The position numbers and the translations under genes are program-made. The notes under the pieces are model-generated. The model saw only the letters and a list, made by a program, of their open reading frames with translations. It was not told where the DNA came from and searched no databases. Below are positions 15,844-20,206 of a DNA stretch of 58,143 bases, in pieces. Every line of letters begins with the position of its first letter. Position 1 is the first letter of the stretch. The stretch is from Neomelitea salexigens DSM 19753 (GTDB taxonomy: Bacteria > Pseudomonadota > Gammaproteobacteria > Pseudomonadales > Spongiibacteraceae): contig NZ_AULP01000007.1 in the NCBI RefSeq assembly GCF_000422345.1, positions 1 through 58,143 on the forward strand. The letters run 5' to 3'.

Positions 15844-17052
15844 ATGAATGAGTTCTGGCGCAGCATCCTGGGGCCGGAAATGCCACCCCATGGTCACTGC
15901 TACCTTTGGAATGAACAGCTGGTGTTTCTGCACGTTCTTAGCGACACATTAATTACCCTGTCTTACTTCACGATCCCCATTGCGTTGATTGTGCTCGTCA
16001 AGCGACGTGAAGATCTCAAGTTTAACTACATGTTCTTGATGTTCGCGGTGTTTATTTTTGCCTGTGGCGCCACGCACCTAGTGAATATTCTGAATGTTTG
16101 GTACGGCGCTTATTGGTTGAGCGGCACTATAAAGGCGATAACGGCCATCGCCTCTGTCGGCACGGCAACAATGGTGTGGCCCCTGATCCCCAAAGCCTTG
16201 GCGTTGCCGAGTAATGCACAGTTGGTCGAACTGAATAGTCAGTTGCAGAATGAAATTGCTGAGAACCGCCGTAAACAGGAAGAAGTGGAGCGATTGTCGG
16301 AGGACTTAAAGAGTCTCGTTACACAGCGCACCGAAGAACTCGCTGAAGCGCGGTTGAATAAAACCCTTCTCGAAAAGACCAATGAGTCGCTCAGCGATAG
16401 CAATACTGCGCTGGAAGAGTTTTCGCGGGCTACTACCGAGGGTTTTGTCGAGCCTTTGAGAGTTATCGATGTATACAGCAAGCGCTTGCAGGAGCGCGCT
16501 GGCCAGGAGCTGAGCGAGGAAGCCCGGCAGTGGTTAAGCAAAGTCCGTGAGGCGAGCAACCAGGCGTCGCGCTTAAATGCCGGCTTGCAGCGCTATAGCC
16601 AGCTGCCTATGAATGAGCCCGTTGAGGAATTGAGCCTGGACAGCTTGGTATCGCGAATTATCGACGACGAGGCTATGGCCGATGTTGTGAGCATTCAGCC
16701 GCCTGGGTTGGGTCGCGCCGTGCTGCCGGGTGGAACGATGACCCTGGTTGTCAGAGAGCTACTGCGCAACGCCAAACGCTTCAGTGGCCAACGCCCATTG
16801 CGGGTGGATATTGGTCGTTTACCCGACCCTACTACGGGTGGCCTCGCGCTGTTTGTAAGAGATAACGGTCGCGGGATTCCCGCCGCCCAGCAGAAGCGTG
16901 TCTTTGCTCTCTTCGAGCAATTTCATTCGGAGGGTGAGGGCGTCGGTCTGGCTTCTATTCGCCGTCTCGTTAGTGAATATGGTGGCCGTGTCAGCGTTAT
17001 CAGTGATGGTGAGAGCGGCAGCGAGTTCCGCGTTGAATTCCCGCTGCTATAA
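15844..17052 (+). CDS. Ethylene-receptor-like sensor protein with degenerate histidine kinase
   Basis: A 402-residue membrane protein. Three N-terminal helices (about 28-50, 62-82, 92-112) match the ethylene-binding domain of plant ETR1. D34, Y41, I44, P45, C74 and H78 line up with ETR1 D25, Y32, I35, P36, C65 and H69 at a constant offset of 9; C74/H78 (FACGATHL) would hold copper. A coiled coil (about 125-190) leads to the dimerisation domain. There the expected SHDLQEPLR motif reads TTEGFVEPLR, so the phospho-acceptor His is replaced by E199. The ATPase domain keeps ELLRNAK, DNGRGIP and GEGVGLAS. It may therefore sense ethylene or another small ligand, but cannot autophosphorylate in the normal way. 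No regulator gene is adjacent. Confidence 0.88.
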   Translation: MNEFWRSILGPEMPPHGHCYLWNEQLVFLHVLSDTLITLSYFTIPIALIVLVKRREDLKFNYMFLMFAVFIFACGATHLVNILNVWYGAYWLSGTIKAITAIASVGTATMVWPLIPKALALPSNAQLVELNSQLQNEIAENRRKQEEVERLSEDLKSLVTQRTEELAEARLNKTLLEKTNESLSDSNTALEEFSRATTEGFVEPLRVIDVYSKRLQERAGQELSEEARQWLSKVREASNQASRLNAGLQRYSQLPMNEPVEELSLDSLVSRIIDDEAMADVVSIQPPGLGRAVLPGGTMTLVVRELLRNAKRFSGQRPLRVDIGRLPDPTTGGLALFVRDNGRGIPAAQQKRVFALFEQFHSEGEGVGLASIRRLVSEYGGRVSVISDGESGSEFRVEFPLL

Positions 17053-17057
17053 TCCGT

Positions 17058-17300
17058 TCACTTTTTGCCCGCTGACTCGTCGATTTTGTCGAGAATGCGG
17101 GTAGCGGTGTCGTCATTCTCTTGCCAGAGTTGACGGGCTAACCTCGCTGCGGTGTCCCGGCTTGTTACTAAATGCTGCCGAAAGCGCCGACAGGGGCCGC
17201 AAATCATCAGGTGCATTTTAAATTGCAGGCCGGCCCAGCCGCGCGGCGGGTTATCGAGGTGCTCACTGGCCAAATGGCTTACTTCCTTGCAGCTTAGCAT
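17058..17300 (-). CDS. Putative zinc-finger anti-sigma factor
   Basis: An 80-residue soluble protein. Its N-terminus has the CKEVSHLASEHLDNP helix, followed by the H-x3-C-x2-C motif (HLMICGPC, about residue 30), the hallmark of zf-HC2/ZAS anti-sigma domains. The small size and the lack of a membrane span suggest a cytoplasmic anti-sigma factor that reads metal or redox state through its Zn/Cys site. Its start overlaps the end of the sigma gene by 7 nt (ATGCTAA), the coupling usual for sigma/anti-sigma pairs. It is the last gene of the doxX-sigma-antisigma unit. Confidence 0.88.
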   Translation of the reverse strand: MLSCKEVSHLASEHLDNPPRGWAGLQFKMHLMICGPCRRFRQHLVTSRDTAARLARQLWQENDDTATRILDKIDESAGKK

Positions 17301-17908
17301 TCCCCCGTCTCCTGAAAGTGGTCGACAACATCTAGCAGTTTGAATCGCGCCCGGTGAAGTAATACGCGTACATTGCTTTCGCTTAGCAGCAATTGTTCGG
17401 CAATATCACTCAGTGGCATTTGCTCTAAATCACGCAGCATAAACACTGCTTTTTGGTTCTCCGGTAGCAAGGTTAGTGTGTGCTCGATACAACAGCGCAA
17501 CTGGTCTTCCTCTAACAGGCGCTCCGGTGAGCCCAGCTCCCAATGAGCGGGCGGGATTTGCCAGTGGCCATCGGCGGCGAAACGGTTCTCTGCGAGCGCC
17601 GCAGGAAGCTGCTCGGTATCGGCCACATTCATATGGCGCTTCTCCTTGCGAAGTCGCGATTTGGCCTCGTTACTGACGATCTGAATCATCCAGGTCGATA
17701 GTGCAGAACGTCCTTCGAAGCGGTTTATCGCCCTGAATATTGAGGTCCAGGCTTCCTGTACCACATCCTCGGCAAAGACATCACCAATAATGGCGCGGGC
17801 CACAATGAGCAGGCGCTGATTGTAGCGAACAATAAGGTCCCTGAATGCGGCGTTGTCGCCGCTTTGCAGGCGTTCGAGCAGGGCGTCGTCTTGCGTTGCT
17901 TGTGACAC
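17294..17908 (-). CDS. RNA polymerase ECF sigma factor
   Basis: A 204-residue sigma-70 family ECF factor. Region 2 spans DLIVRYNQRLLIVARAIIGD, DVVQEAWTSIFRAI and RSALSTWMIQIVSNEAKSRL. Region 4 spans LPENQKAVFMLRDLEQMPLSDIAEQL and SESNVRVLLHRARFKL. A roughly 35-residue linker lies between them. The listed start is GTG 17908 with GAAGG 9 nt upstream. An ATG at 18001, 2 nt after the DoxX stop, would add 31 unconserved residues and is the alternative. It sits between a DoxX gene and a zinc-finger anti-sigma gene. The identical promoters at 18659 and 18735 suggest that it drives its own operon and the EGKCG peptide gene. Confidence 0.9.
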   Translation of the reverse strand: MSQATQDDALLERLQSGDNAAFRDLIVRYNQRLLIVARAIIGDVFAEDVVQEAWTSIFRAINRFEGRSALSTWMIQIVSNEAKSRLRKEKRHMNVADTEQLPAALAENRFAADGHWQIPPAHWELGSPERLLEEDQLRCCIEHTLTLLPENQKAVFMLRDLEQMPLSDIAEQLLLSESNVRVLLHRARFKLLDVVDHFQETGEC

Positions 17909-18003
17909 GCGTAGTGGCCTTCGTTTTGTAGCTAAACGTAGGCCGTAGTGTCCCTGATAACGCGACCCGACGGCAATGCTTGGCGGTAAAATTGCTGACA
18001 TCT

Positions 18004-18627
18004 TTAGCGGCGTTGTCGCGTCACATAACGGTGGAGGCCGTCATCGATACTCACGTAGCGCCCTCCGCCCATTTTGATCAGGGCCAGTAACATAATGAAA
18101 TAAGTGGCTGCGAACTCGATGCCGTTGTTGAGGATCACGAAGTTGCCGCTCTCCGTCAGCCAATCGTAGTGGCCGTGTTCCTGGAGAATGGATTTTGCCG
18201 CCTCCAGTTTTTCCGCTGCGGCGTCAACACGGGCATTTGCAAAGGGGGCACTCGCATCGGCGATCGCCTGCCAGCCAAAGGACCAGTGCACGGTGGTGGC
18301 GGCCACCAGCATGGTAACGGCGAGCGGCACCGCTATCCAGCGTGTGGCGAGGCCAACGAGCAGCAGTGCGGCACCCGCCAGTTCAGTGGCAGTAGCCAAG
18401 CCTGCCATCAGTGTTGGCATGGGCAGCCCCAGGCCCCACTCGGGGTTGCCAAACCAGGCGACGGTGTCGTCGAAATGGCGGTACTTATTGCTGCCTGCCA
18501 TCCAAAATATTGGTACCAGATAGAGCCGAATCAACAGTGGCGGCAGACCAGAGAGCGGTGTCAGCAGGCGCCCTAGTCCCTTGTGTGGGCGAGTGACCGT
18601 GTCAGTAGCGGTCTGGAGAAGCGTCAT
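18004..18627 (-). CDS. DoxX family membrane protein (HvfX-like)
   Basis: A 207-residue inner-membrane protein with about four helices. The DoxX pattern is visible: LLIRLYLVPIFWMAGSNKY, then ATATELAGAALLLVGLATRW, AVTMLVAATTVHW and a last helix ending ALIKMGGG. The segment between helices 3 and 4 is long and soluble. DoxX proteins of this type (HvfX) accompany copper-binding EGKCG-type RiPP genes, where they are thought to help maturation or handling. The longest frame begins at 18759, but the promoter at 18659-18688 lies downstream of that codon. ATG 18627, with AAGGA 8 nt upstream, is therefore preferred. Followed at 2 nt or 95 nt by the sigma gene, depending on the sigma start. Confidence 0.85.
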   Translation of the reverse strand: MTLLQTATDTVTRPHKGLGRLLTPLSGLPPLLIRLYLVPIFWMAGSNKYRHFDDTVAWFGNPEWGLGLPMPTLMAGLATATELAGAALLLVGLATRWIAVPLAVTMLVAATTVHWSFGWQAIADASAPFANARVDAAAEKLEAAKSILQEHGHYDWLTESGNFVILNNGIEFAATYFIMLLALIKMGGGRYVSIDDGLHRYVTRQRR

Positions 18628-18658
18628 GGCGAGCATCCTTATTTTTACAGGTATGCGC

Positions 18659-18688
18659 CATAGACGAACCGCGCTCGTCATTGTTACA
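18659..18688 (-). promoter_or_regulatory. ECF-type promoter of the doxX-sigma-antisigma operon
   Basis: On the minus strand, TGTAACAA (18688-18681) is followed after 14 nt by CGTCTATG (18666-18659). The TGTAAC and CGTC cores, 16 nt apart, are typical ECF -35 and -10 elements. The same two blocks with the same spacing occur on the other strand at 18735. The leader to ATG 18627 would be about 25 nt. Confidence 0.8.
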
Positions 18689-18734
18689 CCGCGTGGAAAT
18701 ATTTCAGTGGTGCCAATAAAAATTATTAATTCGC

Positions 18735-18764
18735 TGTAACAACTTCCTCTGTGAGTCATCTATG
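18735..18764 (+). promoter_or_regulatory. ECF-type promoter of the EGKCG peptide gene
   Basis: TGTAACAA (18735-18742), 14 nt, then CATCTATG (18757-18764). Fifteen of 16 element bases equal those of the divergent promoter at 18659-18688, while the spacers differ, which points to recognition by one ECF sigma factor. A second TGTAAC at 18766 with CGTC 18 nt later has poorer spacing. The leader to ATG 18825 is roughly 55 nt, with a GAGG ribosome site. Confidence 0.8.
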
Positions 18765-18824
18765 CTGTAACGCAGGTGCTTTTCGCTGGCGTCAATTAAA
18801 CTTTCTAAACGAGGTAGTACATCC

Positions 18825-19196
18825 ATGAATAAATCAAAAATGACAGCACTGACCGCCGCCATGTTCGCTTCAAGTCTTGCTTCTGCTGCGGTGAGCGATA
18901 GCGGCAACCCCTTCAGTGCGCAATCGCTGAGCAGTGGCTATCAACAAGTGGATTTTGGTAAGCACGCTGAGGGTAAATGCGGCGAAGGCAAGTGTGGTGG
19001 CAAAAAGGCCAGCGACGAAGGTAAATGCGGCGAGGGCAAGTGCGGTGGTAAAAAAGCCAGCAACGAAGGTAAGTGTGGTGAAGGCAAATGTGGCGGCAAT
19101 AAGGCCAGCGACGAAGGCAAGTGTGGCGAGGGTAAATGTGGCGGCAATAAAGCCCGTAATGAAGGCAAGTGTGGCGAAGGTAAGTGCGGCCACTAA
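18825..19196 (+). CDS. EGKCG-repeat secreted peptide, HvfA-like RiPP metallophore precursor
   Basis: A 123-residue preprotein. An N-terminal signal peptide (about 1-21, ending ASSLASA) is followed by a leader with NPFSAQSLSSGYQ. The core runs from residue 49 to 123 and has five 16-residue units, each carrying EGKCG twice; the last unit is cut to 11 residues. It has ten cysteines (52, 57, 68, 73, 84, 89, 100, 105, 116, 121), all within EGKCG. HvfA-family precursors of this shape are modified by DUF692 (MNIO) enzymes at Cys, giving oxazolone/thioamide groups that bind copper. No DUF692 or DUF2063 gene is in the window, so modification must come from elsewhere or not occur. It is divergent from DoxX-sigma-antisigma with a matching promoter. 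An unmodified Cys-rich metal binder is the alternative. Confidence 0.88.
   Translation: MNKSKMTALTAAMFASSLASAAVSDSGNPFSAQSLSSGYQQVDFGKHAEGKCGEGKCGGKKASDEGKCGEGKCGGKKASNEGKCGEGKCGGNKASDEGKCGEGKCGGNKARNEGKCGEGKCGH
18969..19193 (+). repeat. 48-bp tandem coding repeat (4 full units plus a partial unit)
   Basis: Units begin at 18969, 19017, 19065, 19113 and 19161; the last stops after 33 bp. Each encodes EGKCGEGKCGG plus a variable KKASD, KKASN, NKASD or NKARN tail. Synonymous changes (GGT/GGC, AAA/AAG, TGC/TGT) are scattered among the units, so the protein motif is being kept rather than the units being recently copied. Repeat number may vary between strains by slippage or recombination. Confidence 0.95.
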
Positions 19197-19303: not shown

Positions 19304-20206
19304 TTGGGCGGTGTTGTGGCAGATTTTCCTTTTCGATTTTCGCAAGACAGGCGGCGCTTAGCCATTGGCGTCGGCTTGTCCCTGCTCACCGTTTTCCTGT
19401 CGGCGACCGTTGCCGCGGTCGGTAAACATCTGTCGGGAATGCAGGTGCCGGTATCGGCAATGATCGTTGCCCAGTACAGCATATCCTTTGTTTTTACTCT
19501 GCCCAGTGTTGCGCGCGGCGGCGTTGCCAGCTTGCGTAGTGAGCGCCTGCCCATGCATTTTTTGAGAGGTTTAAGCGGAGTCGCGTGCTTCTACTTTTAC
19601 TTTTTTGCGCTCAGTAAAATTTCACTGTTAGAAGCCACACTGCTTCGTAATAGCGCACCGTTGATGGTGCCGCTGCTAATATTTTTGGCGTTGCGAGAGC
19701 CGGTGAGCCGTCGCAGCTTACCGCCGTTACTGCTGGGTTTTGCCGGGGTGGTGTTAGTGCTGCGGCCGGGCTTTGCAGAGTTGAGTATCTGGCATTTGGT
19801 CGCGTTGGGCTCGGGCTTGGGCTTGGCCATCTCTATGATCACCACGCGTATGCTGGCGTCGACTGAGCCAGCAAATCGGATCTTGTTCTATTACTTTTCT
19901 GTGTCGCTGATGGTCAGCGTGCCGTTTTTTCTCTGGCAGGGCGGCGACGTGCATCTCTCGGCCTACCCTTGGTTGCTGTATATGGGGGTGGTGATCTATT
20001 TGTGCTTTCTGCTGTACACCTGGGCTTATCGTTATGCGTCGGCATCGGTGCTCGCGCCGACCAGTTATTTTGCGGTGGTCTTTGGGGGGGTGCTGGATTG
20101 GCTGATCTGGGGGCTGCTGCCAGATACGCTCACACTGATTGGCATTGCGCTGGTGATTCTTGGCGGTGTGATGGTTGTCGGCGGCCGCGACGATGCCAAA
20201 ACATAA
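19304..20206 (+). CDS. EamA/DMT family transporter
   Basis: A 300-residue inner-membrane protein with about ten helices and the two-fold EamA repeat. The first half ends near FAGVVLVLRPGF, and the second half ends in the related LIGIALVILGGVMVVGG. A charged segment precedes the first helix. Drug/metabolite transporters of this kind usually export amino acids, metabolites or toxic compounds; the substrate is not readable. The start is uncertain: TTG 19304 gives the longest frame, GTG 19316 is also possible, and neither has a strong ribosome site. Its position after the EGKCG peptide gene could mean co-expression, but no coupling signal is visible. Confidence 0.82.
   Translation: MGGVVADFPFRFSQDRRRLAIGVGLSLLTVFLSATVAAVGKHLSGMQVPVSAMIVAQYSISFVFTLPSVARGGVASLRSERLPMHFLRGLSGVACFYFYFFALSKISLLEATLLRNSAPLMVPLLIFLALREPVSRRSLPPLLLGFAGVVLVLRPGFAELSIWHLVALGSGLGLAISMITTRMLASTEPANRILFYYFSVSLMVSVPFFLWQGGDVHLSAYPWLLYMGVVIYLCFLLYTWAYRYASASVLAPTSYFAVVFGGVLDWLIWGLLPDTLTLIGIALVILGGVMVVGGRDDAKT

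Follow-up and report, generated by a model that had tools for sequence, protein, structure and literature searches.

Where does a cysteine-rich precursor peptide, which probably binds copper, obtain its modifying enzyme when none is encoded beside it? This question is raised by a 58,143-nucleotide stretch of the marine bacterium Neomelitea salexigens DSM 19753 (C7:1-58143, here termed the window; contig C7 is 194 kb long, and the source genome, G000 in our sample, comprises 3.44 Mb in 21 contigs), in which hvfA, the gene for an HvfA-type precursor, lies divergent to hvfX, which encodes a DoxX-family membrane protein, and to genes for an extracytoplasmic function (ECF) sigma factor and a zinc-finger anti-sigma factor (Table 1). 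In studied systems HvfC is required for the activity of HvfB, and the HvfBC pair turns cysteine into 5-thiooxazole (PMC13419390, PMC13097082); four hydrogens are lost per Cys of the EGKCG core (PMC12538549), and the -2 Da or thioamide changes named in the original prediction for this locus are outdated in favour of -4 Da per Cys (PMC13097082, PMC12538549). That prediction had reported no local DUF692 or DUF2063 gene and had offered three explanations, namely that the enzyme is encoded elsewhere, that the peptide works unmodified, or that the DoxX protein takes a larger part. We conclude that the window is most likely that half of a distributed hvf (captophorin/oxazolin) system which supplies precursor and regulators, and that in this system one stress regulon would span both sites and a remote HvfBC would modify the cysteines in trans; the window peptide probably gets its modifying enzyme from elsewhere rather than going without. 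Neither the parts nor the sigma link is novel, and the new element is a precursor parted from its enzyme under one sigma box, a split that was not described in the literature searched (titles and abstract openings, subscription journals lying mostly outside the search).

Remote enzyme genes and their promoter box

A search of the whole genome found two MNIO (DUF692) genes and two DUF2063 genes, on contigs C1 and C11, and no match to either family on the 194-kb contig C7; the reported lack of a local enzyme holds for the entire contig, and the locus is not a standard hvf cluster. An intact hvfB-hvfC pair was found at 187-188.5 kb of C1 (hvfB at C1:187671-188453), which supports the first of the three explanations. 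Its HvfB scores 408.1 bits on the HvfB equivalog model (cut-off 360), the nearest solved structure being 3BWW (E 2.9e-73), and its HvfC scores 304.5 bits on the HvfC equivalog model (cut-off 142). The pair is flanked by hrpA-like and mlaA-like genes (named by eye) and has no precursor gene beside it, HvfA-domain matches in the source genome being confined to C7. hvfBC lies ~187 kb inside a 696-kb contig and hvfA ~19 kb inside another, and they are therefore not neighbours that were parted by a contig end; in the relative G015 the precursor and enzyme sites are ~956 kb apart on a single 3.47-Mb contig.

The promoter quoted in the original prediction was searched genome-wide as TGTAACAA-N13..15-CRTCTATG, with the reversed pattern as control. 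There are exactly two matches in the 3.44-Mb genome, forming the divergent hvfA/hvfX pair, and none to the reversed control. This exact pattern was rejected as a means of finding a regulon, since it yields only the two window boxes and a matrix and a looser pattern are needed. A weight matrix was trained on 16 hvfX-side boxes (from the window and 15 relatives; TGTAAC-N16-CRTC), the enzyme locus being outside the training set, and in the window only the hvfA and hvfX boxes score above 11. When 16 kb around hvfBC on C1 was scanned on both strands, the best position was TGTAACAATTCGCTGAGTCATACGTCCTA, ~60 bp before hvfB, with a score of 22.2, the next reaching 13.1. This box starts in the last codons of hrpA and stands directly before hvfB.

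The second MNIO gene, on C11, is part of a bufferin-type operon that also includes a DoxX-like gene, a DUF2282 precursor and a DUF2063 partner, and it might be this BufB-type enzyme that modifies the window peptide. It scores 288 bits on the BufB model (cut-off 310) and 187 bits on the HvfB model (cut-off 360), under the threshold in both cases; its partner reaches 31 bits on the HvfC model, and no box scoring at least 10 was found by the matrix in 12 kb around the buf operon. Taken with the relatives that have a single MNIO (see below), these values make modification by the C11 enzyme very improbable.

The wider distribution of the box was studied with a strict pattern, TGTAACA-N15-CRTCTA, scanned in the whole genomes of a family sample of 21 (the source genome included) with the pattern read backwards as control; the hvfA and hvfX boxes were the source of this pattern, which leaves the remaining classes of target as the only ones independent of its making. 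It has 26 matches against 5 for the reversed control, 5 of the 21 genomes being without any, and 22 of the 26 precede hvf, msrP, glutathione S-transferase (GST) or sigma genes, as assigned by position and by reading the next open reading frame (ORF). Seven are boxes at the enzyme locus (locus 1, below), seven stand before msrP-like genes that are followed by an msrQ-like gene (L089-L095), four are the hvfA and hvfX boxes of the source genome and of Spongiibacter marinus DSM 17750 (G011), three precede a GST-like gene (source genome, S. marinus and G012) and one precedes the sigma gene of G014; the remaining four lie elsewhere (G001:C3, G002:C16, G009:C11, G019:C9). Family models were applied to the msrP of L092 (477 bits) and of the source genome (484 bits; cut-off 207) and to one GST, the other msrP-like and GST-like genes being named by eye from their similarity to these. 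In the source genome a box with one mismatch lies 57 bp before msrP, and predicted boxes of the same class stand before hvfA, hvfX, hvfB and msrP. The box-bearing genes look like a small regulon, and the proposal that the switch controls only the peptide and the DoxX gene is not supported, given boxes of this class before hvfB, msrP and the GST gene as well.

Boxes alone cannot assign a sigma factor, and this is a common general type of ECF promoter; the local sigma/anti-sigma pair could control only hvfA and hvfX, with another ECF sigma factor of similar promoter driving hvfBC and msrPQ. We consider this unlikely, since sequence class and spacing are the same at the sites and since the sigma/anti-sigma-like pair of G014, which has no hvfX, carries the same box in front. 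A tested parallel also comes from Haemophilus influenzae, whose RpoE2 drives a distant doxX cluster (PMC7907618).

With one mismatch allowed, the source genome has six matches against eight for the reversed pattern, and this count was rejected as evidence by itself. Because of it, single boxes before a peroxiredoxin-like gene, a 740-residue PstC-like gene, a TVP38-like gene and a further short ORF (the latter three named by eye) may be chance; two of these boxes, at L102:3664 (-) and L103:3725 (+), score 24.6 and 23.6 and lie 64-65 bp before the PstC-like and peroxiredoxin-like genes. Matrix hits inside sigma genes (L139, L165, L132, L060) were set aside and read as chance matches in a conserved coding stretch.

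The two-part layout in the family and beyond

In 20 of the 21 family genomes the order hrpA-(hvfA1)-hvfB-hvfC is found at one place (locus 1), and in 16 of the 21 hvfX-sigma-antisigma stands at a second (locus 2), accompanied by a divergent hvfA2 in 14 of the 16. The usual layout in the family is two-part, with hrpA-hvfA1-hvfBC at one site and hvfA2 divergent from hvfX-sigma-antisigma at the other. The precursors share an NPF...GY leader (17/17 of the locus-1 set, made up of 16 beside hrpA and that of G020, and 14/14 at locus 2). hvfA1 is absent from G000, G011, G015 and G018, in which the precursor is found only at locus 2, whilst G013 and G019 lack hvfA2 at locus 2; the hvfA of G018 is missed by the model NF050137, yet an ORF with seven CG and the leader is present. 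HrpA and HvfB trees place the genomes without hvfA1 in two distinct clades, and the sister of G000 and G011 is G019, a genome with hvfA1 but no hvfA2. hvfBC can persist after the loss of one or the other precursor.

None of the 21 genomes lacks a precursor, and none lacks an MNIO. Three of the hvfA1-less genomes (S. marinus, G015 and G018) carry a single MNIO gene, which lies at locus 1, and the remote HvfB is therefore the only candidate found there, which counts against the C11 type of enzyme. S. marinus is a close relative of the source genome (91.4-96.5% nucleotide identity over ten genes) in which hvfC is intact at 251 residues, and the ratio of non-synonymous to synonymous change (dN/dS) between the two is 0.076 for hvfB, 0.080 for hvfC and 0.072 for hvfA; the low values for hvfB and hvfC imply that the enzyme pair is still under purifying selection though no precursor adjoins it. 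Boxes were found at both sites in all three: those of S. marinus are of one class and score 19.5 before hvfA and 22.2 before hvfB, and those of G018 (9.6 and 15.5, respectively) and G015 (10.3 and 11.4) are weaker.

These data bear on the explanation that the peptide acts in unmodified form, being secreted as a thiol-rich sink for metal or oxidant, and that hvfBC is a relic. A product with ten cysteines and a putative signal peptide could indeed bind metal as it stands, and non-modification is left open for precursors without a local MNIO in PMC12452194. It is nevertheless very improbable here, as both enzyme genes are intact and show purifying selection, the box before hvfB is kept, and every one of the 21 genomes has both an MNIO and a precursor.

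The boxes of locus 1 were scanned in the 20 genomes with the hrpA layout (source genome included, G020 left out), which are related and so not independent. The best matrix position on either strand lies within the hvfA1/hvfB promoter gap in 19 of the 20 regions. The box begins inside the hrpA match in 16 of 20; with the C1 box standing directly before hvfB, this fits deletion of hvfA1 downstream of a promoter that was retained. At locus 2 a box is found near the hvfX start in 16/16 genomes, the same sequences that trained the matrix, and a TGTAAC box stands at -89 to -114 before 14/14 hvfA2 genes, where the -10 part is variable and the scores range from 9.2 to 19.5, many being low.

Beyond the family, the named loci are the best 80 of 545 confirmed hvfX loci, in which precursors were recognised by motif only and some may be missed. 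Among these 80, a precursor, hvfB and hvfC are nearby in 27 (17 of them also with a sigma gene), hvfX is alone in 28 and 20 are mixed. The other five have precursor, hvfX, sigma and anti-sigma genes and no hvfBC in the DNA around them: S. marinus and three Zhongshania, all of which belong to the 21 family genomes, and Methylophaga sp. OBS4, the sole addition. In the latter there is no precursor within the 3.8 kb of the hvfBC site (L210), which carries a box of 16.4, 81 bp before the hvfB match, the hvfA box scoring 19.5; with boxes at both sites this split appears similar to that of the source genome. The start of an msrP gene follows the Methylophaga hvfX (43 bits over the 81 residues scanned, against a full-length cut-off of 207). 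The leader is not universal, being present in 17 of the 39 HvfA-like ORFs at the best 80 of 545 hvfX loci; 12 of the 22 leader-less ORFs were inspected, of which 11 are from Acinetobacter.

Whole genomes were checked for 28 chosen cases (7 whose layout is special, and 21 drawn from the 28 loci where hvfX is alone). An MNIO was found in 26 of the 28 and an HvfA match in 27, the two adjoining by coordinates in 22; the genome of L134 has neither match. Both are present and apart in four, namely S. marinus, Methylophaga, Colwellia hornerae and the metagenome-assembled genome (MAG) of L156. In the Pseudomonadales MAG of L165, hvfX and a sigma gene (box 25.4) are found apart from hrpA-hvfABC (L203, box 19.4). 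The hvfX loci L106 (Simiduia), L134 and L166 (Colwellia) showed no box that scores 12 or higher. Colwellia maritima (L172) has HvfA matches and a divergent sigma/hvfX pair with no MNIO match, as non-modification would allow; it may be a case of an orphan precursor or of an incomplete assembly, and unless the latter applies it speaks against strict pairing of precursor and enzyme.

Several further observations, together with the one-mismatch count, weigh against a precursor half served by a remote HvfBC under one sigma factor. The source genome also holds the BufB-type MNIO of C11, which could act instead. The -10 part of the C1 box is CGTCC and not CGTCT, and the exact pattern misses it. In G020 sigma, hvfA, hvfB, hvfC and hvfX are all in one place. 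At locus 1, L056 is the exception to the position of the best box, its own scoring 9.3 and one elsewhere 11.3, and the boxes of L052, L055 and L059 are weak (9.3, 11.4 and 11.9). Both Methylophaga boxes end in AGTC, not CRTC. Outside the family, a box of at least 11 that precedes hvfA or hvfB on the strand of the gene occurs in 5 of 30 MNIO loci (L191, L199, L203, L207 and L210, one of which is from S. marinus); there is none of that score on either strand in 23 of the 30, and in two it is on the wrong strand. The promoter evidence is, moreover, wholly by sequence.

Proposed mechanism and known systems

Read directly from sequence are the gene content, the boxes, the site of hvfBC in trans with no neighbouring precursor, and the purifying selection on hvfBC. 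A mechanism that would join these begins with the anti-sigma protein holding the ECF sigma factor, until a stress signal, presumably an oxidant or a metal, frees it. Freed sigma would then transcribe hvfA and its own operon hvfX-sigma-antisigma through the predicted boxes and, in trans, the remote hvfB-hvfC operon, msrP-msrQ and the GST gene. HvfC, as leader-binding partner, would recognise the NPF...GY leader of HvfA, and HvfB would oxidise the ten HvfA cysteines in the cytoplasm in trans, with an expected change of -4 Da per Cys. The peptide would be exported by Sec and bind Cu(I) in the periplasm, with HvfX acting as the membrane partner of exported HvfA.

One close known system is that of H. 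influenzae, in which RpoE2, held by the ZAS anti-sigma protein HrsE, drives msrAB, a dmt gene and the doxX cluster under hypochlorous acid (HOCl) stress, and also mtsZ (PMC7907618). The doxX cluster is taken to be hvf, a name that is absent from the passages of PMC7907618 on which this comparison draws. The HvfA, HvfB, HvfC and HvfX parts are common to the source genome and to the hvfABCX (oxazolin) genes of H. influenzae (PMC13419390). Both also have a small ZAS anti-sigma protein, that of H. influenzae being cytoplasmic (PMC7907618). The arrangement differs, as the H. influenzae precursor adjoins the enzyme genes, far from the sigma gene, whereas in the source genome precursor, HvfX and sigma are together and the enzyme is remote; the source genome, unlike H. 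influenzae as described, also has the box before an MsrP-type reductase gene (PMC7907618).

In Caulobacter, SigF recognises a GTAACC-N16-CGAA promoter, with the same spacing as in the source genome, and controls a bufferin-type regulon of two DUF692/DUF2063 operons and YedY/MsrP; it differs in that its DUF2282 precursors adjoin the MNIO and that the negative regulator is a DUF1109 protein rather than a zinc-finger anti-sigma (PMC3511200). The Microbulbifer mmrABC and Fontimonas fonABC captophorins share the EGKCG core, the leader-binding DUF2063 partner, the MNIO and the loss of 4 Da per Cys (PMC12538549, PMC13097082). They differ from the source genome in having precursor and enzymes together, and the genes flanking mmr are called likely uninvolved (PMC12538549, PMC13097082). 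Bufferin-type precursors without a local MNIO are known, for which a remote MNIO and no modification are both open options, and very few precursor genes occur in genomes that lack an MNIO gene (PMC12452194). Unlike in the source genome, no shared promoter or history links a precursor of this kind with one particular remote MNIO in the parts of PMC12452194 used here. The original prediction spoke of a metal-responsive switch; the printed parallels implicate oxidants such as HOCl as well as metals.

The window would fit the same logic as these systems with the parts redistributed, so that sensor, substrate and HvfX are together and the maturase, elsewhere, is joined to them by the promoter. Cluster-based mining would miss such an enzyme-substrate link, and the promoter can help to recover it; the question left open in PMC12452194, a remote MNIO or none, is made directly testable in a named type strain, S. 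marinus. More speculatively, and at a level of confidence that remains low, precursor, HvfX and sigma/anti-sigma might form a separable sensing-and-substrate module that works in trans with one remote HvfBC, the maturase having ancestrally served two precursors of which either could be lost; the same division would have arisen or persisted in distant Gammaproteobacteria (Methylophaga), making the sigma regulon rather than the gene cluster the unit of selection, with possible feedback from the mature peptide or HvfX to the anti-sigma protein.

Features of the window locus

Table 1. Genes and predicted ECF promoter boxes around hvfA in the window
Feature	Position	Strand	Details
Zinc-finger (ZAS-type, zf-HC2) anti-sigma gene	17058..17300	-	PF13490; NF052368 54.4 bits (cut-off 50)
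ECF sigma factor gene	17294..18001	-	PF04542, PF08281; TIGR02937 97 bits
hvfX, DoxX-family membrane protein	18004..18627	-	NF050144 234.1 bits (cut-off 80); PF07681
Predicted ECF box before hvfX-sigma-antisigma	18659..18688	-	TGTAACAA-N14-CGTCTATG; 61 bp before likely hvfX ATG
Predicted ECF box before hvfA	18735..18764	+	TGTAACAA-N14-CATCTATG; 90 bp before ATG
hvfA (hvfA2 type) precursor, 123 aa	18825..19196	+	10 EGKCG, 16-residue units, leader motif NPFSAQSLSSGY

The peptide had been called an HvfA-type precursor, which the NCBIfam model NF050137 (HvfA domain) bears out at 102.5 bits (cut-off 19.5); on the full-length HvfA equivalog NF050188 it scores 68.7 bits, under the cut-off of 95, and it is classed from its sequence as a member of the HvfA-domain family and not as a curated equivalog. 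It has no Pfam match and does not qualify as a DUF2282 bufferin (Buf1). A motif count gives exactly ten EGKCG, as had been predicted, arranged in four full 16-residue units and a truncated fifth instead of five full ones. The N terminus looks like a Sec-type signal peptide by eye.

The assignments of the three opposite-strand genes as DoxX/HvfX, ECF sigma and zinc-finger anti-sigma agree with their model matches. The longest hvfX ORF is 18004-18759, and the ATG at 18627, which gives 207 residues and matches the family length, is probably the true start because the longer ORF would span both promoter boxes. A second HvfX paralogue of the source genome (L078:3374-4219, C8 ~107.6 kb; 208 bits on NF050144) has a housekeeping-like setting, with prfA/prmC-like genes and a DEAD-box helicase gene nearby (by eye), and no box scoring at least 10 was found in 8 kb around it. 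The HvfX match of G001 was rejected as a locus-2 hvfX, as it is a different paralogue in a setting like that of C8:107589 in the source genome. The sigma gene ORF begins directly after the hvfX stop, its real start being uncertain, and its end is overlapped by the anti-sigma gene. The anti-sigma motif, C4-X25-H-X3-C-X2-C, fits the ZAS pattern C/H-X23-26-H-X3-C-X2-C given in PMC7907618. GC content is level across the region (54-59%), and there is therefore no sign of recent import.

Two neighbouring genes recur at locus 2. A kinase-like gene (15844-17052, +), convergent with the anti-sigma gene and with a homologue at the same place in 13/15 relatives, encodes an ethylene-receptor N-terminal domain (PF25487), a CGATH motif, which we take to be a copper-ligand pattern, and HATPase_c; its phospho-acceptor histidine is not obvious by eye (EEFSRATTEGFVEPL). 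Downstream of hvfA lies an EamA/DMT transporter gene (19334-20206, +) with a homologue in locus 2 of 12/15 relatives, and a dmt transporter gene is likewise found near the sigma gene in the rpoE2 region of H. influenzae (PMC7907618).

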